A DNA stretch of 64,000 bases from Kribbibacterium absianum (GTDB taxonomy: Bacteria; Actinomycetota; Coriobacteriia; Coriobacteriales; Atopobiaceae), in contig NZ_JASJEX010000002.1 of the NCBI RefSeq assembly GCF_030067705.1, forward strand, positions 310,001 through 374,000. The letters are read 5' to 3'. Of the stretch, positions 5,486 through 41,668 are shown piece by piece (within the stretch, counting starts at the first letter, position 1; every line of letters begins with the position of its first letter). Below the pieces are notes generated by a model. The model did not search any database and was not told where the DNA came from. It was given only the letters and a program-made list of their open reading frames with translations. The translations under genes were made by a program, and so were the position numbers.

Positions 5486-5599
5486 TGGACGCTTCGGTCA
5501 AAGCCATTTGTCCACGGTTGGACGCTTCGGTCAAAGCCGTTTGTCCACGCTCCAGCCGACCGGAGCGTGGACAAACGGCTCTCTCCGAAGAAGCGTCCA
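5486..5599. repeat. TGGACGCTTCGG...TTTGTCCACG repeat cluster 1
   Basis: Three copies of a roughly 31-base unit: two direct (5486-5516, 5519-5549) and one inverted (5566-5599, with a 3-base AAG duplication). Copies 2 and 3 face each other and form a hairpin with a 19-base perfect stem (AGCCGTTTGTCCACGCTCC pairs with its complement) and an 8-base loop. This pair-with-loop layout resembles BIMEs made of REP sequences. Confidence 0.85.
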
Positions 5600-11765: not shown

Positions 11766-11950
11766 ATGCGCCCTCCGTGCATGGAACGAGCGTTGGGTCA
11801 GTTGGTGCATTAAATACGGGGACGGGAGTATACAAACGACGAGATGTCCGGCCATTTACCGCTGAAAACGGAAATGCGACCGCTCCCCGCAGTGCATAAA
11901 CCCTTCACACCCTTGCCCAGTTGTCTCGGGTATATCTGAAAACACCGATG

Positions 11951-11985
11951 CGCCCCGCCGTTCTGGCGGGGTGTCCCGTTTTAGG
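11951..11985 (+). promoter_or_regulatory. Hairpin leader (possible attenuator) of carbamate kinase
   Basis: CCCCGCC (11953-11959) and GGCGGGG (11965-11971) form a stem with a 5-base loop, followed by TGTCCCGTTTT, 20 bases before the carbamate kinase ribosome site. A terminator-like hairpin inside a 5' leader suggests attenuation, though an upstream terminator is also possible. The rest of 11766-12004 has no gene. Confidence 0.4.
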
Positions 11986-12004
11986 CACTGGGAGGAGCAC
12001 CAGC

Positions 12005-12976
12005 ATGGCTGAGTCCGAATACAAGAAGGCGCCGGGCAAGCCCGACCGTATCGTGGTGGCCCTGGGCGGCAACGCCCTCGGCGACAACCCCAAGGAGCAG
12101 ATGGAGCGCATCAACGTCGCCGCTCCGGCGCTGCTCGACCTCATCAACGAGAAGAGCGAGATCGTCATCACCCACGGCAACGGCCCGCAGGTCGGCATGA
12201 TCCAGAAGGCCTTCGCCATCGCGAGCGACGCGAACCCCAGCGTCCCCGCCATGGACCTGCCCGAGTGCGGCGCCATGTCCCAGGGCTACATCGGCTACCA
12301 CCTGCAGAAGGGCATCGGCAACGAGATCCGTCACCGCGGCAAGCCTTGGCACGTCGCGACCATCGTCACCGAGGTCGAGGTGGACAAGGACGACCCCGCG
12401 TTCGAGAACCCCACGAAGCCCATCGGCCAGTTCCTGACCAAGGAGCAGGCGGACATGCAGAAGCTCGAGAACCCCGACTGGACGTTCGTCGAGGACTCCG
12501 GCCGCGGCTATCGTCGCGTCGTCGCCTCCCCGCAGCCCAAGGCCATCGTGGAGATCGGCTCCATTCGTCACCTGCTTGACGCCGAGTACATCGTCATCGC
12601 CTGCGGTGGCGGCGGCATCCCCGTGTACGAGCAGGACAACGCCCTGGTGGGCGTCGGCGCCGTCATCGACAAGGACCTCGCCGGCGAGCTTCTGGCCGAG
12701 GACGTCGATGCCGAGAAGCTCATCCTGTTGACCGCCGTCGATCACGTGGCCATCAACTTCGGCAAGCCGGACCAGGAGGACCTCACCGACATCACCGTCG
12801 AGCAGGCCAAGAAGTACGTGGAGGAGGGCCAGTTCGGCAAGGGCTCCATGGAGCCGAAGGTCAAGGCGGCCATCAAGTTCGCCGAGTCCCGCCCCGGCCG
12901 CGTTGCCATTATCGGCAGCCTGGAGAAGGCCGCCGCAGCGGCGAACGGCGAGTCCGGCACCCGCATCCACCTGTAG
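12005..12976 (+). CDS. arcC: Carbamate kinase
   Basis: Converts carbamoyl phosphate and ADP to ATP, CO2 and ammonia in the cytoplasm; 323 residues, of normal length. The nucleotide loop is VVALGGNALG at about 15-24; ITHGNGPQVG and IACGGGGIPV are further family signatures. The start at 12005 follows GGGAGGAG. It stands alone with its own terminator, 10 kb from the putrescine carbamoyltransferase locus and 24 kb from the second transcarbamylase cluster. I infer that it serves one or both, since no other carbamate kinase is in the window. Confidence 0.96.
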   Translation: MAESEYKKAPGKPDRIVVALGGNALGDNPKEQMERINVAAPALLDLINEKSEIVITHGNGPQVGMIQKAFAIASDANPSVPAMDLPECGAMSQGYIGYHLQKGIGNEIRHRGKPWHVATIVTEVEVDKDDPAFENPTKPIGQFLTKEQADMQKLENPDWTFVEDSGRGYRRVVASPQPKAIVEIGSIRHLLDAEYIVIACGGGGIPVYEQDNALVGVGAVIDKDLAGELLAEDVDAEKLILLTAVDHVAINFGKPDQEDLTDITVEQAKKYVEEGQFGKGSMEPKVKAAIKFAESRPGRVAIIGSLEKAAAAANGESGTRIHL

Positions 12977-22690: not shown

Positions 22691-23755
22691 ATGGCAAAGG
22701 GTTTCCCGAAGGACTTCATCGACACCAACGAGCTCACGAAGGAGCAGATCCTCCAGATCGTCGACCTGTCCATCGCGATGAAGCGCTGCATCAAGAACGG
22801 CTACTATCCGCCCCTGCTGAAGAACCGCACGCTCGGCATGATCTTCCAGCAGGTCTCCACCCGCACCCGCATCTCCTTTGAGACGGCGATGACGGACCTC
22901 GGCGGCCACGCGCAGTTCTACGGCCCGGGCACCATCCAGCTGGGCGGCCACGAGTCCATCGAGGACACCGCCCGCGTCATGGGGTCGCTCGTCGACGTCC
23001 TGATGGCCCGCGTCGACACCCACGCGGACGTCGTGCAGCTCGCGAAGCACTCCCAGGCCCCTGTGCTCAACGGCATGAGCGACTTCAATCACCCGACTCA
23101 GGAGATCGGCGACCTGATGACGATGATCGAGAACCTCCCCGAGGGCAAGAGGATCGAGGACTGCACGCTCGCCTTCATCGGCGACGCGACGCAGGTCTGC
23201 GTGTCCCTGATGTTCGTCTGCTCCAAGATCGGCATGCACTTCGTGCAGTTCGGGCCCAAGGGCCACCAGATCACCGACGGCGCCCTGATGAAGGACGACT
23301 CCGTGGACCTGCTCGCCATCGGCGAGGCCAACTGCAAGGAGTCCGGCGGCACCATCACGATCAGCGATGACATCGACTGCATCAAGGGCGCGGACTTCAT
23401 CTACACCGACGTTTGGTACGGCCTCTACGACGAGCAGGAGTCCGGCGAGGACTACCTGCAGGTCTTCTATCCCAAGTACCAGGTGACGCCCGAGATGATG
23501 GACTACGCGGGCCCCGACTCCAAGTTCATGCACTGCCTGCCCGCCACGCGCGGCGAGGAGGTCGTGGACGCCGTCATGGACGACGAGCACCGCTCGCTCT
23601 GCTGGGACGAGGCCGAGAACCGCAAGCACTCCATCCGGGGCCTGCTCGCGACCTTCTGCCCCTGGAACGTCGAGACCGACCAGGTGGGCGAGGCCAAGGA
23701 CGAGCTGGTCAAGGCCCTCGCCGCGATGTCCTTCCCCACGGACGTCGTCGAGTAG
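22691..23755 (+). CDS. ptcA: Putrescine carbamoyltransferase
   Basis: Phosphorolyses carbamoylputrescine to putrescine and carbamoyl phosphate. 354 residues. The carbamoyl-phosphate loop STRTR is at 56-60 and HPTQ at 134-137. The features that separate this enzyme from ornithine carbamoyltransferase are all present: GDATQVC, the substrate loop [17 protein letters not shown] and [14 protein letters not shown]-terminal extension follows the core, as expected for PTC. AAAGGAG precedes the start. It heads the operon with the permease and agmatine deiminase. Confidence 0.95.
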
Positions 23756-23775
23756 CACGCCGCCCCGCCGGCGGG

Positions 23776-23799
23776 CGCCCCGGGCCCCGGTCCGGGGCG
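23776..23799 (+). terminator. Intercistronic hairpin between ptcA and the permease
   Basis: CGCCCCGG and CCGGGGCG form a strong stem 21 bases after ptcA, with no T run. More likely an mRNA-processing or partial termination signal than a full terminator. Confidence 0.4.
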
Positions 23800-23839
23800 T
23801 CCGACACGTTTCGAACTCGTCCTCTACGAAAGGCCCCTC

Positions 23840-25276
23840 ATGGCTGGCAAGAAGTTCTCCTTCATGAGCGTGATCCTCTCGGTGATCTGCGTGGTCTTCG
23901 TCGCCGAGGCCGCCGCCCCTGCGGCCGCCATCGGAAACCAGCAGTTCTTCTGGTGGATCTTCCTCATCATCACGTTCCTGCTGCCCTACGGCATGGTGGT
24001 CGCCGAGCTGGGCACCACCTACGACTCCGACGGCGGCATCTACGATTGGGTCCGCGACGCCCTCGGCGACAAATGGGGCGCCCGCGTGGCCTACTACTAC
24101 TGGATCAACTTCCCGCTCTGGATCGCGTCTCTGGCCACGCTGTTCCCGGACATCATCGGCATGGTGTTCGGCGTGGAGTTCAACCTGGTGGCGACCGTGG
24201 GCATCGAGCTCGCGTTCACCTGGATCGTCGTGCTCATGGCCACGTCCAAGGTCTCCGACTCCGCGTGGGTGCTCAACGGCGGCGCCATCCTGAAGGTCGC
24301 CATCGCCGTGACCGTGGGCGCGCTCGGCATCTGGTACGCGATGAACAACGGCTTCGCGAGCGACATGAGCCCGGCCACGTTCCTGCCGGACTTCACCTCC
24401 ACGAGCGCCCTCGGCTACCTCTCGATCATCATCTTCAACTTCATGGGCTTCGAGGTCATCTGCACCTTTGCCAAGGACATGGAGAACCCCGAGCGCGACA
24501 TCCCCAAGGCCATCATCGTCGGCGGCCTTGCCATCGCGGCCATCTACCTCTTCTGCTCGTTCGGCATCGGCGCGGCCATCCCGGCCGACCAGATCGACCC
24601 GGACTTCGGCATGATCGTGGCCGTGCAGACCATGGTGGGGGACTCGCCGCTCTTCGCGATCATCTCCATCGTGTTCCTGATCACGCTGTTCGCGAACATG
24701 GCCAGCTGGTCCTTCGGCGTCAACTTCGTGGCCGACTACGCCGCCAAGCACGGCAACATGCCCAAGCCCTTCGGCATCGAGTCGCCCAAGACCGAGATGC
24801 CCAACGGCGCCAATGTGATCAACGGCATCGTGGCCTCGCTCGTCCTCATGATTCAGCTCATCCCGGTGGACGCGATCGCCAACGGCCTCTTCTGGATGCT
24901 CTTCGCCACGAGCGTCGTGTTCCTGCTCTTGACCTACATCCCGATGTTCCCCGCGTTCATCAAGCTCCGCAAGGTGGACGCCAAGCGGCCGCGCGTGTTC
25001 ACGTACCCCTTCAGGGGCACCGCGATGAAGGTCACGCTGGCCATTCCGGTGATCGAGCTTGTGCTCGCCATCGTCGCGACCCTGGTGCCGTTCTCGGCCG
25101 AGGAAGTGCCCGAGAAGCTCCCGATGATCGCCATCTTCATCGTGCTGCTCCTGGTGGGCGAGGTCATACGCGTGCTGTCCGCCAAGGGTCGCACCGAGGA
25201 GTTCAAGGGCCTCACCGCCGAGGAGGCCGAGATGCGCCTCGCCGACGAGCGGACCCACGGTCTGGATCACCTGTAA
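23840..25276 (+). CDS. aguD: APC-family permease, probable agmatine/putrescine antiporter
   Basis: 478 residues, about 12 membrane helices, amino acid-polyamine-organocation superfamily. N-terminal region VICVVFVAEAAAPAAAIGNQ and AELGTTYDSDGGIYDWVRDA (the conserved glycine-rich helix 1/2 region). In known agmatine loci the gene next to ptcA encodes the agmatine/putrescine exchanger, so I infer the same. It is closely similar throughout to the permease at 26737, including TTYDSDGG and ENPxRDIPKAI, so one or both may have another amine substrate. Confidence 0.85.
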   Translation: MAGKKFSFMSVILSVICVVFVAEAAAPAAAIGNQQFFWWIFLIITFLLPYGMVVAELGTTYDSDGGIYDWVRDALGDKWGARVAYYYWINFPLWIASLATLFPDIIGMVFGVEFNLVATVGIELAFTWIVVLMATSKVSDSAWVLNGGAILKVAIAVTVGALGIWYAMNNGFASDMSPATFLPDFTSTSALGYLSIIIFNFMGFEVICTFAKDMENPERDIPKAIIVGGLAIAAIYLFCSFGIGAAIPADQIDPDFGMIVAVQTMVGDSPLFAIISIVFLITLFANMASWSFGVNFVADYAAKHGNMPKPFGIESPKTEMPNGANVINGIVASLVLMIQLIPVDAIANGLFWMLFATSVVFLLLTYIPMFPAFIKLRKVDAKRPRVFTYPFRGTAMKVTLAIPVIELVLAIVATLVPFSAEEVPEKLPMIAIFIVLLLVGEVIRVLSAKGRTEEFKGLTAEEAEMRLADERTHGLDHL

Positions 25277-25285
25277 CTCGCACAG

Positions 25286-25357
25286 ACCACCTGCAAAAGG
25301 GGACGGAGCACTTTTGCAGGTGGTTAGAAGAGCTATTTGCAGGAATGCTCCGTCCCC
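25286..25357. repeat. Nested inverted repeat, GGGGACGGAGCA family
   Basis: An outer 14-base stem (ACCACCTGCAAAAG with CTTTTGCAGGTGGT, 25286-25324) encloses GGGGACGGAGCA. That core has its complement TGCTCCGTCCCC at 25345-25357, giving alternative pairings. It lies between the permease and aguA and shares its core with the repeat at 1386-1440. Confidence 0.75.
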
Positions 25358-25383
25358 TTCTTCAGGACTAGAAAGGAACCGCC

Positions 25384-26586
25384 ATGCGCACCATCACCGA
25401 GTCCGAGTCCACGCCTGCGGCCGACGGCTACGCGATGCCCGCCGAGTTCGCCCCGCAGGACCGCGTGTGGATGGGCTGGCCCCACCGCACCGACACCTGG
25501 GCCCACGGCGCCAAGCCGGCCCAGGCCCAGTATGCCAACGTCGCGCGCGCCATCGCGCAGTTCACTCCCGTCTACATGTGCGCCAACGAGTGCGACTACG
25601 CCAACTGCAAGGCCGTCTTCGAGGACGACCCCAATGTGACCGTGGTCGAGATGTCCACCAACGACGCGTGGTTCCGCGACACCGGCGCCACGTTCGTCAC
25701 CAACGGCGAGGGCGGCAAGCGCGCCGTGCACTGGCACTTCAACGCCTACGGCGGCGCCATCGACGGCCTCTACGCGCCCTGGGACTTCGACGAGCAGATC
25801 GCCGTCAAGATGGCCGAGCTGGCCCACGCCGACTGCTACCGCCCGGACGACATGATCCTCGAGGGCGGCTCCATCACGGTGGACGGCGAGGGCACCGTCA
25901 TCGTGACCGACCAGTGCCTGTTGAGCCCCGGCCGCACCGCCTCCGCTGTGCGCGAGGAGCCCGACGAGGACGACATCTGGCCCACCTACGCCAACACCTT
26001 CCAGCCCTGGTCCGAGCCGCTCCGCGCCTACATGACCGAGCACCTCAAGGACTATCTCGGCGTCGAGAAGGTCATCTGGGTCAAGGAGGGCATCGACCCC
26101 TGCGAGACGAACGGCCACATCGACGACGTCGCCACGTTCATTGCCCCCGGCGCCGTGGCCTGCATCTGGACCGACGACCCCGACTACCCGTTCTACCGTC
26201 AGTGCCACGAGGCCTACGAGACGCTGTCCAACGCCGTCGACGCCCAGGGTCGCACGCTCAGGGTGCACAAGCTGCCGATGCCCGTGAAGCCGGTCTACAT
26301 GGACGAGGCCTCCTGCGCGTCCATCGACGTGGACGAGAACGCCGAGCCCCGTGTGCCGGACGAGCCGCTCATCGCGAGCTACATGAACTTCCTCGTGACC
26401 AACGGCGGCGTCATCACCCCGCAGTACGGCGACGAGAACGACGCGCTCGCCATCGAGACGCTGCAGCGCATCTACGACGAGGAGTGGGGCGCCGGTGCCT
26501 ACACCGTGGTGGGCGTCCCCAGCGAGCAGGTGGTGTACGGCGGCGGCAACATCCACTGCATCACGCAGCAGGAGCCGCGCGCCTAA
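25384..26586 (+). CDS. aguA: Agmatine deiminase
   Basis: Hydrolyses agmatine to N-carbamoylputrescine and ammonia; 400 residues, guanidino-group-modifying fold. Conserved segments are WPHRTDTW near the N-terminus, NDAWFRDTGATF (catalytic Asp), EGGSITVDG, CETNGHIDDVATF (catalytic His-Asp) and the nucleophilic cysteine near residue 392 in GGGNIHCITQQEP. The start follows GAAAGGAACC. It works with ptcA and the permease upstream; the carbamoyl phosphate produced would go to the carbamate kinase at 12005. Confidence 0.96.
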   Translation: MRTITESESTPAADGYAMPAEFAPQDRVWMGWPHRTDTWAHGAKPAQAQYANVARAIAQFTPVYMCANECDYANCKAVFEDDPNVTVVEMSTNDAWFRDTGATFVTNGEGGKRAVHWHFNAYGGAIDGLYAPWDFDEQIAVKMAELAHADCYRPDDMILEGGSITVDGEGTVIVTDQCLLSPGRTASAVREEPDEDDIWPTYANTFQPWSEPLRAYMTEHLKDYLGVEKVIWVKEGIDPCETNGHIDDVATFIAPGAVACIWTDDPDYPFYRQCHEAYETLSNAVDAQGRTLRVHKLPMPVKPVYMDEASCASIDVDENAEPRVPDEPLIASYMNFLVTNGGVITPQYGDENDALAIETLQRIYDEEWGAGAYTVVGVPSEQVVYGGGNIHCITQQEPRA

Positions 26587-35734: not shown

Positions 35735-36406
35735 ATGGGGGAGTACTCGGTGGGCATCGCCACCCGCAGCAAGATCTACGACGTGGCCAAGCGTCTCTTC
35801 TACGAGCAGGGGGTCAAGGCCACGAGCTATGCCCAGATCAGCCGCGAGGCGGAGGTCAACAAGGGCCTCATCCCCTACTACTTCAAGACGAAGCCCAAGC
35901 TGGCGATGCAGGTGGACCGGGAGTTCCTGGGCGGCATTGACGACGCCATTTGGGGTCACTGGGGCGAGGACGGCCTCACGGACCCCGAGTTCCACATGAT
36001 CTACGAGCTTCTGATGTTTCGGTTGCTCGGGCGCGATCCGCAGGTGTTGCGGTTCTACAGCGACGTGATGGGCGATCCCGACTGTCACGACGCGTGCCTC
36101 GCATTGCAGCGGGAGACGATGGGCCAGATAGCGATGGGCTCCGGCATCGCGGTGTCCGACGCCGCGCTCCAGACCATCGTCGCGATGGTGAACGGCACCG
36201 AGTCCGAGCTGGTGCACGCGCTTCAATCGGCCCAGCTGCACGAGTCGGTCGAGGATTTCGTGCGCCGGGACGTTCTGTGCTGCTACTTCCTTCTCGGCGC
36301 GGACACAGCCGCAGTGGAGGAGGTCTTCGATCGCTCGCTCGACCTGTGCGAAGGCCTGACGCTGGCCTGCGGGCCGGATTTCTCGGTGTCGGTTGTCGCG
36401 TCGTAG
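35735..36406 (+). CDS. TetR-family transcriptional regulator
   Basis: 223 residues. N-terminal helix-turn-helix at 10-58 (RSKIYDVAKRLFYEQGVKAT, SYAQISREAEVNKGLIPYYF). The C-terminal ligand and dimer domain has no recognisable signature; it contains several Cys and Met residues. AAGGAG precedes the start. It is immediately upstream of the second transcarbamylase cluster on the same strand (246 bases), so it may control that cluster. A TGACCA word lies just before its own start (35716-35721) and a full TGACCA inverted repeat before the cluster. Confidence 0.9.
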   Translation: MGEYSVGIATRSKIYDVAKRLFYEQGVKATSYAQISREAEVNKGLIPYYFKTKPKLAMQVDREFLGGIDDAIWGHWGEDGLTDPEFHMIYELLMFRLLGRDPQVLRFYSDVMGDPDCHDACLALQRETMGQIAMGSGIAVSDAALQTIVAMVNGTESELVHALQSAQLHESVEDFVRRDVLCCYFLLGADTAAVEEVFDRSLDLCEGLTLACGPDFSVSVVAS

Positions 36407-36652: not shown

Positions 36653-37756
36653 ATGAGAGTCCCACCCAAGCTACGCCGGAACAACCACCTGGTTAGCACA
36701 GCGGATCTGTCCGCCAAAGAGCTGCGTGACATCCTGCATCTGATGAAGCTGCTCAAGGACGCCCATGTCCAGGGCGTGCAGCTGCCGCTCCTCAAGGACA
36801 AGGTGCTCGCGATGATCTTCGAGATCAGCTCCACGCGCACCCGCTGCTCGTTCGAGAACGCGATGACGTACCTGGGTGGCCACGCCGAGTTTCTCGCGAT
36901 GAGCAACCTGCAGATCGGCGACGGCCATGAATCTATGCGCGACACCGCCGAGGTCATCAGCCGCATGTGCGACGGAGTGATCATGCGATGCAACGACCAT
37001 GCCTACCTCGAGGAGTTCGCCAGGTACTCCTACGTGCCGGTGTTCAACGGCATGACGATGGACGGCCACCCCACCCAGGTGCTCGCAGACGTGTTCACGA
37101 TGATGGAGCACCTGCCGGGCGTGCCGTTGCAAGACGTGACCGTCATGTACATGGGCGACAACAACGACAACGCCGACAAGCTGGTGCCGATCCAGCGCGA
37201 GATGATGTGGATGTGCGCGAAGCTCGGCATGACCTATATCGCCTGCGGGCCCCGTGCCATGTGGCCCAACGAGGCCGACACCGCTCAGTTCGAGCGCTTT
37301 GCCGAGGAGAACCACTCGGGCGCTCGTCTCATTTGCACTGAGGACCCGTTCGAGCACATCGCGGACGTCGACTTCACGGTCTCCGATTCCTTTGTCTACG
37401 GCATGCCGGAAGGCCCGGCGTACGACGCCCGTCGCGCGGCCCTGATGCCTTATCAGGTGAACCAGGCCCTGGTGGATGCTGGCAAGCCGAGCCTCGGGGT
37501 TCTCCACTGCCTGCCCTGCGAGCGTGACTGCGAGGTCACGTCCGAGGTGCTCGACGGCCCCAACTCCCTGGCCTTTGAGGAGGCCGAGAACCGCCTCCAC
37601 GCCCAGAAGGCGATCCTCGTCTGGTTCATGTACGCAGATCCGACGCCGCCCGAGCTCACCACCTACCACATGGGCAAGGTCGAGGGCTTCCTGCACGGTG
37701 CCGAGCGCGACGTGCCGTCCTCCGTCTACCACCTGGACCACTCGGAAGAGCAGTAA
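36653..37756 (+). CDS. Divergent transcarbamylase A (ornithine/putrescine carbamoyltransferase superfamily)
   Basis: 367 residues. The carbamoyl-phosphate motifs are intact: STRTR (60-64), HPTQ and HCLP. The substrate-side motifs are not those of known enzymes: GDNNDNADKL in place of GDATQV or the ornithine-type GDxxNN, FVYGMPEGP in place of the SMG loop or WYGLYDE, and HCLPCERDCEV. The start at 36653 follows AGAAAGGG. It is first in a four-gene cluster with a close paralogue 24 bases downstream. I infer a transcarbamylase for a substrate other than ornithine or putrescine; automatic tools would probably call it ornithine carbamoyltransferase. Confidence 0.85.
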   Translation: MRVPPKLRRNNHLVSTADLSAKELRDILHLMKLLKDAHVQGVQLPLLKDKVLAMIFEISSTRTRCSFENAMTYLGGHAEFLAMSNLQIGDGHESMRDTAEVISRMCDGVIMRCNDHAYLEEFARYSYVPVFNGMTMDGHPTQVLADVFTMMEHLPGVPLQDVTVMYMGDNNDNADKLVPIQREMMWMCAKLGMTYIACGPRAMWPNEADTAQFERFAEENHSGARLICTEDPFEHIADVDFTVSDSFVYGMPEGPAYDARRAALMPYQVNQALVDAGKPSLGVLHCLPCERDCEVTSEVLDGPNSLAFEEAENRLHAQKAILVWFMYADPTPPELTTYHMGKVEGFLHGAERDVPSSVYHLDHSEEQ

Positions 37757-37779: not shown

Positions 37780-38907
37780 ATGAACCCTGCCCAGACCAAG
37801 CGCGCCGAGACCTGCGCCCTGCGCGTTAACCCCCAGCTCACCGACCACGACCACTACCTTGACTGGAAGGACCACACCCGCGAGGAGGTGCTGCGCGTCC
37901 TCGAGGTGACGCGCCTGCTCAAGGAGGCCCACCGCCAGGGCGTGCGCCCGCAGATCCTCTCGGGCAAGGTGCTCGGCATGATGTTCTTCGAGAGCAGCCT
38001 CCGCACCCGCGTGTCCTTCGAAGCGGCCATGGCCCAGCTGGGCGGCCACGCGGAGTTCCTGACGCCCAAGACCATGCATGTGGGCGATGGCAACGAGTCC
38101 ATGCGCGACACCGCCGAGGTGCTCTCCCGCATGTGCGACGCCATTCTGATCCGCGCCGAGGACGACGCCGTGACCCGCGAGTTCGCGAAGTTCTCCTATT
38201 GCCCCGTGATTGACGGCGGCGGCATGAGCTACCACCCGAGCCAGGTCATCGCGGACGTCTTCACGATGCAGGAGCACCTGCCGGGTGTGCCCTTTGAGGA
38301 CATGACCGTGATGTTCATGGGCGACAACAACAACGACTCGCAGTTCGCCTGCGTGCCGGTTCAGCGCTCGCTGATGAACATCTGCGCGATTCTCGGCATG
38401 CGCTACATTGCCTGCTCGCCGGAGTCGCTGCAGCCGACGGCCGAGGACGTCGCGACGTTCGAGCGTCTGGCGGAGCTCAACGGTTCCGGCGCTCAGTTGG
38501 TCGTGACGGACGACCCGGACGAGCACATCGCCGAGGCGGACTTCCTGGTGGGAGAGGTCTTCACCTTCAAGGGCATGGCCGAGCACACGGGCCTTTCGGA
38601 CGAAGAGCTCCGGGCCGTGCGCTGGGACGTGCTGTACCCCAAGTACCAGATCAACGCCGAGCTGGTGGCCAAGGCCAAGCCCACGGTGGGCGTCATGCAC
38701 TGCATGCCCGGCAATCGCGACGAGGAGATCACCACCGAGGTCTGGGATGGTCCGCACTCCCTGCTCTTCGAGGAGGCCGAGAACCGCCTCCACGCCCAGA
38801 AGGGCATCTGCGCCTGCGTGATGTACGACGGCGAGCCGCCCGCGCCGCTGGTCGCGTACCACACCGGCCGCGTCGAGGCCGCCCTGGCGGAGACCCTGGC
38901 CTACTAG
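37780..38907 (+). CDS. Divergent transcarbamylase B, altered carbamoyl-phosphate motifs
   Basis: 375 residues, a paralogue of the previous gene: same GDNNN loop, HLPGVPFEDMTVMFMG, and ENRLHAQKG near the end. Key motifs differ: SLRTR (73-77) instead of STRTR, HPSQ instead of HPTQ, HCMP instead of HCLP, and EVFTFKGMAEHTG as substrate loop. It may be a specialised enzyme or a partner subunit for the first paralogue (family members are trimers with active sites at subunit interfaces). AAGGAGATCC precedes the start, 24 bases after gene A. Confidence 0.83.
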   Translation: MNPAQTKRAETCALRVNPQLTDHDHYLDWKDHTREEVLRVLEVTRLLKEAHRQGVRPQILSGKVLGMMFFESSLRTRVSFEAAMAQLGGHAEFLTPKTMHVGDGNESMRDTAEVLSRMCDAILIRAEDDAVTREFAKFSYCPVIDGGGMSYHPSQVIADVFTMQEHLPGVPFEDMTVMFMGDNNNDSQFACVPVQRSLMNICAILGMRYIACSPESLQPTAEDVATFERLAELNGSGAQLVVTDDPDEHIAEADFLVGEVFTFKGMAEHTGLSDEELRAVRWDVLYPKYQINAELVAKAKPTVGVMHCMPGNRDEEITTEVWDGPHSLLFEEAENRLHAQKGICACVMYDGEPPAPLVAYHTGRVEAALAETLAY

Positions 38908-38924
38908 CCCATCAATCTCACAAC

Positions 38925-38953
38925 GTGCATTTAGGGACAGTCCCTAAATGCAC
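38925..38953. repeat. Palindromic repeat, TTAGGGACAGTCCCTAA family (copy 2)
   Basis: The 29-base core is identical to that in 3513-3545. It lies inside the cluster, between transcarbamylase B and the deiminase, 16 bases before the latter's start. Confidence 0.85.
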
Positions 38954-38968
38954 ATGAAGGAGGAAACC

Positions 38969-40372
38969 ATGAAGAAGCGCATGGCCGCTGAGTGGGAGCC
39001 CGCCGTCGGCGTTCTTGTCGCATGGCCCGCGTCGCTGCCCCAGGCCCTGCTCGTCAAGCTCACCAATGACACCAACGTCCACTTCCTGTGCGCCGATGAG
39101 GACGCGACCGCCGAGGCCGCCGAGACGCTCTCCCAGATGGGCGCCAACCTCGAAAACGTGAGCTACCTCATCGTGCCCAAGGGCGACGATTCCACGTGGC
39201 CGCGCGATTGGGGCCCGCAGCCCCTCTTCGACGAGGACGGGAACTACTACGTCATCGGCCCGCGCTACGTGCTGTCCACGCCGTTCTGTGGCACAGAGCA
39301 CGAGCCCGAGCTCTTCTGCGCTCCTTGGGGCGAGGAGAGGACCCCGCTCAGCCAGTTCGAGGGCGACACTTCCGACGACCTCGCCGCCGAGGCCATCGCG
39401 CGCCAGCTCCGTCTGGGCTATATCAAGGCGCCCTTCGCTTTCACCGGTGGCAACGTGCTCAACGACGGCGTTAACACCATTCTCTCCACCGAGGTCCTCA
39501 TAGCCGAGAACCGCTTCCAGGGCCAGTCGCCCGAGGCCTACTTCACCAACGTGGCCAAGGCCACCGGCATGACCAACTACATCGTGCTCTCGGATTACGA
39601 GCACTTCTCGCTCAACCATGTGGACTGCTTCCTGAAGCCGCTCGACGAGCGCAGGCTCCTGGTGGTGCGTCCCCCCAAGGACCATGAGCTTTACCCCGTC
39701 TACCAGGACATCGTCGAGAACGAGATCCCTCGCTGCACCAACTCGTACGGCGATCCCTGGGAAGTGGTTCCGGTTGATTCGGGCGTCGTTCGCTCGGGGG
39801 AGGGCATCGCCGCGTACGTCAACTCCCTGATCCTCAACGATTGCGTCTACGTGCCGATGTACGGCATCCCGGAGGACGAGCGGGCGCTGCAGCAGTGGCG
39901 CGATGCGATGCCCGGCTATGACGTGCAAGGCTTCACGTTCGAGGTGGCCGACGAGCCGTTTGCCTATAACCCGGACGGCCTGTACGGCGAGGTGGGCTGG
40001 GACCCGGGCGATGTGCTCCACTGTCGCACTCGCGCCATTTGGGATCCCCAGATGCTGCATGTGGACGTGCCCGGGCCCGTTGGCACGCCCGGTGCCGAGG
40101 GCCCCGTCACGGTCGTCGCGAACATCCATGCCTACAGCGCTCGTCCGCTCGTGGCCGAGAAGACCAACCTCTGCTGGCGTGTGTCCGGTGGCGAGTTTCA
40201 GGCTGTGCCGCTCAAGCCGGGGAGCGCCCATGACCAGTATGCGGCCGACATTCCTGCGCAGCCGGCGGGCACCACGGTCGAGTACTACGTCGAGTGCGGC
40301 GACGAGTCGGGTCGCGTCAACACGAGCCCACACGGGGCGCCCAAGCAGTTCCTGAGCTACGTCGTCGCATAG
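38969..40372 (+). CDS. Agmatine/peptidylarginine deiminase-family protein with C-terminal Ig-like domain
   Basis: 467 residues from ATG 38969, after AAGGAGG. The fold is that of agmatine deiminase and bacterial peptidylarginine deiminase (PF04371): STWPRDWGPQ with Asp80, FTGGNVLND, LNHVDCFLKPLD (His-Asp near 217-219) and the presumed nucleophile near residue 352 in VLHCRTRAIWD. Residues about 370-467 form a beta-rich Ig-like domain (VTVVANIHAYSARPLVAEK, then VEYYVECGDESGRVNTS), as in the Porphyromonas gingivalis enzyme. Unlike that secreted enzyme there is no signal peptide. The substrate is unknown; the neighbours suggest a small guanidino compound whose ureido product feeds the transcarbamylases. 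Confidence 0.82.
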   Translation: MKKRMAAEWEPAVGVLVAWPASLPQALLVKLTNDTNVHFLCADEDATAEAAETLSQMGANLENVSYLIVPKGDDSTWPRDWGPQPLFDEDGNYYVIGPRYVLSTPFCGTEHEPELFCAPWGEERTPLSQFEGDTSDDLAAEAIARQLRLGYIKAPFAFTGGNVLNDGVNTILSTEVLIAENRFQGQSPEAYFTNVAKATGMTNYIVLSDYEHFSLNHVDCFLKPLDERRLLVVRPPKDHELYPVYQDIVENEIPRCTNSYGDPWEVVPVDSGVVRSGEGIAAYVNSLILNDCVYVPMYGIPEDERALQQWRDAMPGYDVQGFTFEVADEPFAYNPDGLYGEVGWDPGDVLHCRTRAIWDPQMLHVDVPGPVGTPGAEGPVTVVANIHAYSARPLVAEKTNLCWRVSGGEFQAVPLKPGSAHDQYAADIPAQPAGTTVEYYVECGDESGRVNTSPHGAPKQFLSYVVA

Positions 40373-40456
40373 GAGCGCGATCCCACGAATCGTTCAGCTA
40401 CGGACGTGTTGGCCCCCGACACGTCCCATCCCATCCCTCCCGAAGGAGGTCTCGCA

Positions 40457-41668
40457 ATGCAGCTCTCCAAGATGCAAAAGACGCTGCTCATCGCCGCAAT
40501 CATCATCTCCAACGTAGCCGTCATGGGCGACTACGCCGTGTATCCCATCGTCGACGGCCTCTACTCGCTCTTTGGTGATCAGACTGGCTGGGTGGACACC
40601 TGGGTGGCCATGCCCCAGTGGGTGCAGGTCGTCTTCTCGTTTGCTGCGGCCGCGTTGCTGACGCGCATGTCCACCAAGGGCGTGCTGCTGCTCGGTGGCG
40701 TGTGCTTCACGGTGGGTGGCCTGTTCGGCGCCATTGTCCCCGCCATCGAGTTCATGACGTTCATGCGCTTCCTGTTTGGCGTGGGCATCGCGCTCGTCAA
40801 CGTGGCTGGCGTCTCCGTGCTGGCCCAGGCGTTCACCGACGAGGGCGAGTACAACAAGGTCATGGGCTGGTACAACGCTGGGCAGGCCTTGATTGGCGCC
40901 GGTATCTCCGCCCTGGCCGGCAACTTGGCCCTGCTGGGCTGGTCACACGTGTTCTGGATCTTCATCGCCGCAGCGGCCATGACGGTCATGTTTGCGGTGT
41001 TCGTTCCCACGCTGCGGGACGAGGAAATGGCGGAGGAGGGCGTATCCGGCCCGACCGGCATGGTCTCCGGCGCCTTCTGGCTCGCTGCCATCGCTGTGAT
41101 CGTGTTCTCCGTGGGCTACGCCATCGCTTCCTACTACGTGTCCTCCTACGTGATCGAGAACGGCATCGGCAACGAGACCATGGCCGGCTACCTGGGCTCT
41201 GTGGGCACCGTCGGCTCGTTCGTTTTCTGCCTGGGCTATGGCAAGGTCTACGAGAGGATGCACCGCTGGGTCGCCGTGGCCGCCTATGGCCTGTGCGCCG
41301 TCGTGTTCCTGCTGCTTGCCGTGGCGCCGGGCGCGGCTGTTGCCTACGTGGGCTACTTCCTGCTGGGTGTGGGCATGGGCGTCTGCGCGTCCTACAGCTA
41401 CGGCATCGTGCCGGAGCACTGCTCGTCCGACCGTGTGGACTTTGGCATCGCCGTGATGACCGCCGTCATGTGCCTGGGCTACGCCGTGGCCAGCTACTTT
41501 GTCTCCTTCTTGCAGGAGGTCACCGGCACGAGCCTCTACACCCCGATGTTCCTCGTCGCTGCCGTGATGGCGCTGGTGGCCTGTGCGATCGAGGTTGTCT
41601 CGCACGCGGCCGCGTTCCAGCCTAAGGGCACCTGCACTCCGACGCGAGAGGGGCTGCCACAGGCCTAG
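40457..41668 (+). CDS. MFS transporter
   Basis: 403 residues, about 12 membrane helices, major facilitator superfamily. The start at 40457 follows GAAGGAGG. It begins KMQKTLLIAAIIISNVAVMG and has FMRFLFGVGIALVNVAG with the loop after helix 4. It is the last gene of the cluster and probably imports its substrate or exports the product. The agmatine locus uses APC-type permeases instead, which supports a different compound here. Confidence 0.9.
   Translation: MQLSKMQKTLLIAAIIISNVAVMGDYAVYPIVDGLYSLFGDQTGWVDTWVAMPQWVQVVFSFAAAALLTRMSTKGVLLLGGVCFTVGGLFGAIVPAIEFMTFMRFLFGVGIALVNVAGVSVLAQAFTDEGEYNKVMGWYNAGQALIGAGISALAGNLALLGWSHVFWIFIAAAAMTVMFAVFVPTLRDEEMAEEGVSGPTGMVSGAFWLAAIAVIVFSVGYAIASYYVSSYVIENGIGNETMAGYLGSVGTVGSFVFCLGYGKVYERMHRWVAVAAYGLCAVVFLLLAVAPGAAVAYVGYFLLGVGMGVCASYSYGIVPEHCSSDRVDFGIAVMTAVMCLGYAVASYFVSFLQEVTGTSLYTPMFLVAAVMALVACAIEVVSHAAAFQPKGTCTPTREGLPQA

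Follow-up and report, generated by a model that had tools for sequence, protein, structure and literature searches.

The described systems closest to the locus analysed here are the putrescine carbamoyltransferase (PTC)/agmatine deiminase pathway of the aguBDAC type, the ornithine carbamoyltransferase (OTC)/arginine deiminase pathway, the knotted transcarbamylase YgeW and the P. gingivalis deiminase PPAD, which is exported. The residue two positions before the STRT motif is Lys in OTC and Gln in PTC (accessible text of PMC4581275, section 10, and of PMC3282769), and PTC has a C-terminal extension of about 20 residues with a helix-13 signature (for the signature, accessible text of PMC3282769). 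PPAD can citrullinate free L-arginine according to the accessible text of PMC4893104. In E. lenta, a second complete agmatine deiminase operon was not induced by agmatine, which its authors put down to misannotation or to use of a related compound (accessible text of PMC10234575); this supports the view that such extra operons do not all serve agmatine.

The window, meaning the whole 64,000-nucleotide stretch of the Kribbibacterium absianum genome that was analysed, contains the following genes.

11921..12976, + strand, carbamate kinase ORF, true start probably downstream (TIGR00746, 367.8 bits; cut-off 358.25)
22691..23755, + strand, ordinary PTC (TIGR04384, 543.2 bits; cut-off 500)
25384..26586, + strand, agmatine deiminase, AguA (TIGR03380, 457.0 bits; cut-off 381.8)
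35735..36406, + strand, TetR-type regulator (PF00440), upstream of A in all four carrier genomes, with homologues in L033, L034 and L039
36653..37756, + strand, transcarbamylase A, 367 aa, complete ORF (Pfam OTCace_N and OTCace)
37780..38907, + strand, transcarbamylase B (375 aa), a paralogue that matches A at 52%
38948..40372, + strand, PPAD-like deiminase with a C-terminal Ig-like domain (PF04371, 1.6e-26)
40406..41668, + strand, MFS transporter, probable permease of the cluster (PF07690, 3.8e-36)

The TetR-A-B-deiminase-MFS cluster lies on one strand, with A and B 23 bases apart and B separated from the deiminase gene by 40 bases. It holds no carbamate kinase gene; the window's copy is 24 kb upstream. 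The ordinary PTC, an APC antiporter-type protein and AguA stand together in the window (22691-26586), and the same genome carries ArcA with OTC on another contig, YgeW and carbamate kinase. As PTC with AguA and OTC with ArcA are both present, the putrescine and ornithine roles are already filled.

With the PTC/agmatine deiminase pathway, the A/B cluster shares the transcarbamylase fold, the carbamoyl-phosphate motifs, a sister position in the tree, a C-terminal extension with the helix signature, coupling to a deiminase, an amine antiporter-type transporter (three of four genomes) and carbamate kinase, but it differs in the Ile in place of Gln before STRT, the 240s loop, a 180s loop longer by 7-8 residues, a PPAD-like partner instead of AguA, the presence of two transcarbamylases, and a score of 299 bits against a PTC cut-off of 500. 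The OTC/arginine deiminase pathway has the same fold, carbamoyl-phosphate motifs and pathway logic, whereas A is without the SMG loop and the ornithine-binding Lys and has a partner other than ArcA. YgeW resembles A in the length of the 180s loop, but A has neither the extended 120s loop nor the long 240s-loop insertion and is distant from YgeW in the tree.

Carbamoyl-phosphate side and substrate loops of A

The features of A that bear on its specificity are as follows.

36824..36826, + strand, Ile58, at the position two residues ahead of STRT (Lys in OTC, Gln in PTC)
37154..37207, + strand, lengthened 180s loop GDNNDNADKLVPIQREMM, residues 168-185; the D169-A189 span counts 19 residues
37385..37438, + strand, 240s (substrate) loop DSFVYGMPEGPAYDARRA, residues 245-262, which by alignment stands where OTC has DxxxSMG
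37631..37753, + strand, PTC-like C-terminal extension with VEGFL, matching the PTC helix-13 signature by sequence

An earlier sequence-only reading had placed at 36653-37756 a transcarbamylase with an intact carbamoyl-phosphate side and replaced substrate loops. The ORF and the intact side were confirmed: STRTR (residues 60-64), R112, HPTQ (139-142), HCLP (285-288) and NR (313-314) are present, and S60, R62, T63, R64, R112, H139, P140, Q142, P288, N313 and R314 were invariant in an alignment of 22 transcarbamylases. The superfamily motifs SxRT, HPxQ and HxLP accordingly read STRT, HPTQ and HCLP in A. As to the loops, VYGMPEGP does occupy the substrate-loop position (residues 248-255, 37394-37417), the 240s loop being DSFVYGMPEGP in A against DVWVSMG in OTC and DVWYGLY in PTC. 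GDNNDNADKL was found at residues 168-177 (from 37154) as described, but "replaced" is incomplete, as this region is also lengthened by an insertion, with 19 residues in the D169-A189 span compared with 12 in PTC and 12-13 in OTC, so that A is longer by seven. Ile58 is a third change, absent from that reading, and is Ile in all four A proteins. Its claim that the loops of the paralogue are altered as well also held, B having a 20-residue 180s loop and a different 240s loop.

The A proteins of three other genomes share 66-81% identity with A and have a 180s loop of equal length; the odd loops of A are therefore not due to chance. Two of the three keep VYGMP or VFGMP together with DNADKLVPIQ or DNVDKLVPIQ, and the A protein of genome G267 has CEGSD and AAYDHNTPVQ. 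At the C-terminus, the helix-13 signature reads VEGFL in the window and VEALL, VDAFL and VQGFL in the other three, so the extension characteristic of PTC is present, and the C-terminal helices (333-340 and 343-353) fall in a low-confidence part of the AF2 model.

The substrate signatures of OTC, PTC and the diaminopropionate/diaminobutyrate enzymes do not fit A. In place of the OTC Lys and DxxxSMG it has Ile58 and DSFVYGM, and the PTC Gln is Ile in four of four A proteins. The PTC motif (Y/W)(G/W)(V/L/I)x of the 230/240s loop is VYGM in the gapless register, with YGMP one residue later. The motifs of diaminopropionate/diaminobutyrate transcarbamylases, (T/S)RWQTTG or TRWQSMG and HDLP, are DSFVYGM and HCLP in A; a Streptomyces protein (L066) carries them as expected.

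B reads SLRT, HPSQ and HCMP (Met for Leu) at the superfamily motifs. Two before STRT, the four B proteins have Glu (two), Asp (one) and Gln (one, Eggerthella sinensis); their 180s loops count 19-20 residues, and their 240s loops are unlike that of A. The 240s loop of E. sinensis B (L007:9185-10261), DAWWYHG, resembles those of the ADI-partner relatives described below, unlike the three other B proteins, and may reflect a loop exchange or a retained ancestral loop.

Family placement and relatives of the A/B pair

Among NCBIfam models, A scored 300.9 bits with TIGR00658 (cut-off 280.85) and 299.4 bits with the PTC model TIGR04384 (cut-off 500). By cut-off A would thus be named ornithine carbamoyltransferase. 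The true PTC of the window also passes TIGR00658, at 301.1 bits, so NCBIfam is not decisive for A; B falls below it at 272.6 bits.

Two trees were made. The first (43 rows) held 14 of the 21 non-E. sinensis loci, leaving out L015, L020, L021, L024, L026, L027 and L028. The second (51 rows) was made with loop columns removed and gained the PTC of E. faecalis and the OTC of P. aeruginosa; NRPS_Strep1, NRPS_Strep2, L066, L013, L016, L023 and L005 were dropped from it as long branches or near-copies, and it had no N-acetylornithine transcarbamylase (AOTC) row. In both trees A and B formed one clade (100/99) outside the ornithine, putrescine, YgeW and aspartate clades. In the first, this clade branched with PTC (97/98) but did not fall within the PTC clade (100/100). 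In the second, it grouped with relatives whose partners are ADI, AguA2 or AguA (96/99) and, with the AguA3 partners added, at 80/82; this whole group was sister of the PTC clade (100/99, including the E. faecalis PTC), the two being joined at 95/97. A and B are therefore not equidistant from all known clades. B as a single group was weak in the second tree (91/58) and split in the first, and C_Esin and PyrB were on long branches.

The sequence-only reading had named such a placement as its check, and A grouped inside none of the ornithine, putrescine and YgeW clades; AOTC was placed as a fragment in the first tree only, and N-succinylornithine transcarbamylase (SOTC) was outside the comparison. 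No match over the AOTC cut-off was found in 12 genomes, and oxamate transcarbamylase is not known to be homologous. These placements support a real A/B sub-family on the PTC branch, beside the PTC clade. The separate sub-family of that reading is thus upheld, while its "own substrate" can reasonably be inferred from gene context, namely the PPAD-like partner and the PTC and OTC already present.

The AF2 model of A (pLDDT 86, pTM 0.84) matched OTCs best among solved structures (VIA; Z up to 43.4, 307 residues), followed by PTC (VIA; Z 41.4-42.1 over 312-338 residues, C-terminal extension included) and AOTC (Z 36.6). OTCs were also the best solved-structure matches of A itself. As the alignment behind the model was mostly OTC, loop topology in the model is not independent evidence.

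Second-tier relatives comprised 15 loci in 14 genomes (288-372 bits), and all 15 had a deiminase nearby, of another type than PPAD-like. Among the partners that were scanned, the ADI-like ones of L093 and L094 were below the arcA cut-off, the AguA ones of L101 and L103 and the AguA3-type ones of L098 and L034 were above the AguA cut-off, and the AguA2 type was remote (L097, 134 bits). The 180s loop had 23 residues with ADI-like, 16 with AguA, 16 with AguA3 and 22 with AguA2 partners. Loop length and loop sequences track deiminase type in these relatives, to which near-copies within types contribute; the exception, D_Esin, has an AguA3 partner, 15 residues and a loop of its own, and in the second tree is placed away from the remaining AguA3 partners. 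PTC and OTC also adjoin their deiminases, so adjacency alone is a family habit; the new part is the match of loop type with deiminase type. The five AguA-partner relatives (288-301 bits) do not stand out by score from ordinary PTC and OTC (best Bacillota score 293 bits) and are therefore set apart only by the tree. Transcarbamylase C of E. sinensis (L007:12539-13603), beside an AguA2-type deiminase, has GN for GD before the 180s loop and HELP for HCLP, and its branch is long.

The PPAD-like partner and distribution of the set

The cluster deiminase matched PPAD structure 4yt9 (phmmer, E 1.2e-27) across its deiminase and C-terminal parts, the match reaching residue 415 in a PPAD chain of 432 residues. 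Its D87, H224, D226, N292 and C359, the counterparts of PPAD Asp130, His236, Asp238, Asn297 and Cys351, were invariant in six of six PPAD-like proteins. The AF2 model, built on two sequences, had a mean pLDDT of 48.6, higher in the beta-rich part (370-474). The catalytic residues and the deiminase plus C-terminal Ig-like domain are as in P. gingivalis PPAD, whereas the gene shares its operon with transcarbamylase genes, PPAD-like proteins have Ser or Asn at the position of Tyr233, and the Arg152/Arg154 clamp is probably not conserved, that stretch being unaligned and holding no invariant Arg among the six proteins. No export signal was seen in the N-terminus, judged by eye, in contrast to PPAD; the protein starts MHMKEETMKKRMAAEWEPA and begins MKKRMAAEWEPA after a short lead. 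By the same judgement, the enzyme would be cytosolic.

A-level matches were found in three of 150 relatives, the own genome included (E<=1e-90), and A/B-level matches (657-690 bits) in three of 396 genomes of the class. The PPAD-like gene was found in three of 297 genomes of the order and two of 396 of the phylum; the carriers in the order sample were the same three genomes as those with A/B matches in the class sample, and G010 has both. A, B and the PPAD-like deiminase thus occur together in four genomes (own, G010, E. sinensis (G133) and G267), all with TetR, and at that match level no genome in these overlapping, non-identical samples had only part of the set. The three other carriers belong to different genera. 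There, an APC antiporter-type protein takes the transporter role, against MFS here. The order is TetR-A-APC-PPADlike-B in E. sinensis and G267, and TetR-A-APC-PPADlike-PPADlike-B-APC-APC-carbamate kinase in G010, where a third PPAD-like gene is divergent; carbamate kinase is thus inside the G010 cluster, and it adjoins that of E. sinensis. In all, the G010 stretch (L033:223-11407) holds three PPAD-like deiminases, three APC transporters, one A and one B. The first 20 kb of E. sinensis L034 hold four deiminase genes (AguA, PPAD-like, AguA2 type and AguA3 type) with transcarbamylases A, B, C and D, carbamate kinase and transporters.

None of 348 Bacillota genomes had an A/B-level match, the best profile score being 293 bits against 657-690 for A/B; of the 12 best Bacillota loci, one had a PTC loop and eleven SMG (in L109, SMG was printed and STRT mis-located by the script). 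Plasmids gave only OTC-like matches (534 records, all <60% identity) and five weak AguA-like ones. PPAD-like relatives were present in 20 of 296 Bacteroidota genomes at E<=1e-15, two at 413-433 bits, and the three neighbourhoods of the 20 that were read, including those of the two top-scoring relatives, had no transcarbamylase motif. Bacteroidota loci L128 and L129 have PPAD-like ORFs of 516-534 aa with lipoprotein-like N-termini by eye and no transcarbamylase motif nearby. Among the papers listed, with subscription journals thinly covered, no title or abstract opening described this module.

Proposed energy route and alternative readings

From the observed sequences, tree, gene order and co-occurrence we infer the steps, reaction direction and substrate of a route analogous to those of arginine deiminase and agmatine deiminase. 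A transporter would bring in a guanidino compound, which the cytosolic PPAD-like deiminase would hydrolyse, releasing ammonia and leaving a ureido (N-carbamoyl) compound. Phosphorolysis of that compound by A and/or B would give an amine and carbamoyl phosphate, from which carbamate kinase would make ATP. The two transcarbamylases and the deiminase probably gain energy from some compound other than arginine or agmatine, and on balance we favour a catabolic role for A, with B, in a third guanidino-fermentation route alongside the arginine and agmatine ones. In A, the altered 240s loop, the longer 180s loop and Ile58 would suit a product amine that is neither ornithine nor putrescine. The lost OTC lysine and SMG loop, with the probable absence of the PPAD carboxylate clamp, are a weak hint at a compound without arginine's carboxylate. 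Counting against a third route are A's score above the loose OTC cut-off, its position on the PTC branch, its PTC-like C-terminal extension and the placement of the window's carbamate kinase gene outside the cluster; the set is also in four genomes only, making the sub-family rare. A is best seen as one half of a conserved A/B pair on the PTC branch, tied to a cytosolic PPAD-like deiminase; the sequence-only interpretation was right in kind but incomplete. If the favoured route is true, cut-off names such as ornithine carbamoyltransferase hide an energy route by which gut actinobacteria use a guanidino compound of dietary, host or microbial origin; the locus would then point to a family whose deiminases and transcarbamylases shifted specificity in step, making substrate-loop rules testable.

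More tentatively, A/B may be one branch of a radiation in gut actinobacteria of Coriobacteriia type, where each of several deiminases (PPAD-like, ADI-like, three AguA types) has a separate transcarbamylase with re-cut 180s and 240s loops. These bacteria would then ferment a range of guanidino compounds that have yet to be reported as energy sources; A and B would jointly handle one that needs two transcarbamylases, such as a diguanidino compound or two related ureido products. It is somewhat unlikely, and would be compatible with the favoured route, that A and B form one hetero-oligomeric enzyme or that one is a regulatory subunit: the two are together in four of four genomes, the 15 second-tier stretches have one transcarbamylase each, and active sites of transcarbamylases are shared between subunits (accessible text of PMC4581275), but the carbamoyl-phosphate site residues are kept in both.

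We regard as unlikely that A and/or B works on putrescine (N-carbamoylputrescine) as a diverged duplicate of PTC with another loop. The sister position (95/97), the C-terminal extension and the likeness of YGMP to the PTC motif, one residue out of register, all lean this way. Variant-loop relatives also adjoin agmatine deiminases, as in G172 and G300, where no PTC was over cut-off (the AguA cut-off was checked for G172); loop change alone therefore proves no new substrate, and some variant-loop relatives may be PTCs whose changed loop still serves putrescine. G267 has A and B and no PTC over cut-off, so A or B could replace PTC there. Against it, a true PTC is present in the own genome, G010 and E. 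sinensis, all four A proteins have Ile rather than Gln before STRT, gapless VYGM misfits the PTC motif, A scores well short of the PTC cut-off (299 of 500), and the cluster deiminase is PPAD-like rather than AguA.

That A and/or B is an OTC phosphorolysing citrulline, which the PPAD-like deiminase would supply from free or C-terminal arginine, appears quite improbable. The activity of PPAD on free L-arginine (PMC4893104, accessible text) and the OTC structures that best match A (VIA; Z 43.4) are consistent with it, but A is outside the OTC clades and without DxxxSMG and the Lys before STRT, the genome already has ArcA and OTC, and PPAD-like proteins have Ser or Asn for Tyr233 and no invariant Arg around the expected Arg152/Arg154.

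A knot like that of YgeW, AOTC and SOTC in A and B is hardly credible: the 180s loop has YgeW's length (19 residues) and its VPIQ stretch is like YgeW's VPQ, but that length is unremarkable given the 16-23 residues of the relatives, and this free variation, with a 120s loop of 26 residues as in OTC and PTC against 42 in YgeW, where an extended 120s loop marks knotted transcarbamylases (accessible text of PMC4581275), lowers the idea, as do the single proline in A's 180s loop, the distance from YgeW in the tree and the better alignment of the model to OTC and PTC (Z 41-43) than to AOTC (36.6), though OTC rows dominated the model's alignment.

Elsewhere in the window, a 29-base repeat, GGACGCTTCGGAGAGAGCCATTTGTCCAC, occurs with its variants in nine copies of up to 3 mismatches, where none is expected by chance, at 5487, 21081, 21114, 21146, 21285, 28185, 28218 and 28251 on the + strand and 41723 on the - strand; the three copies near 28.2 kb are tandem, with a 33-base period.
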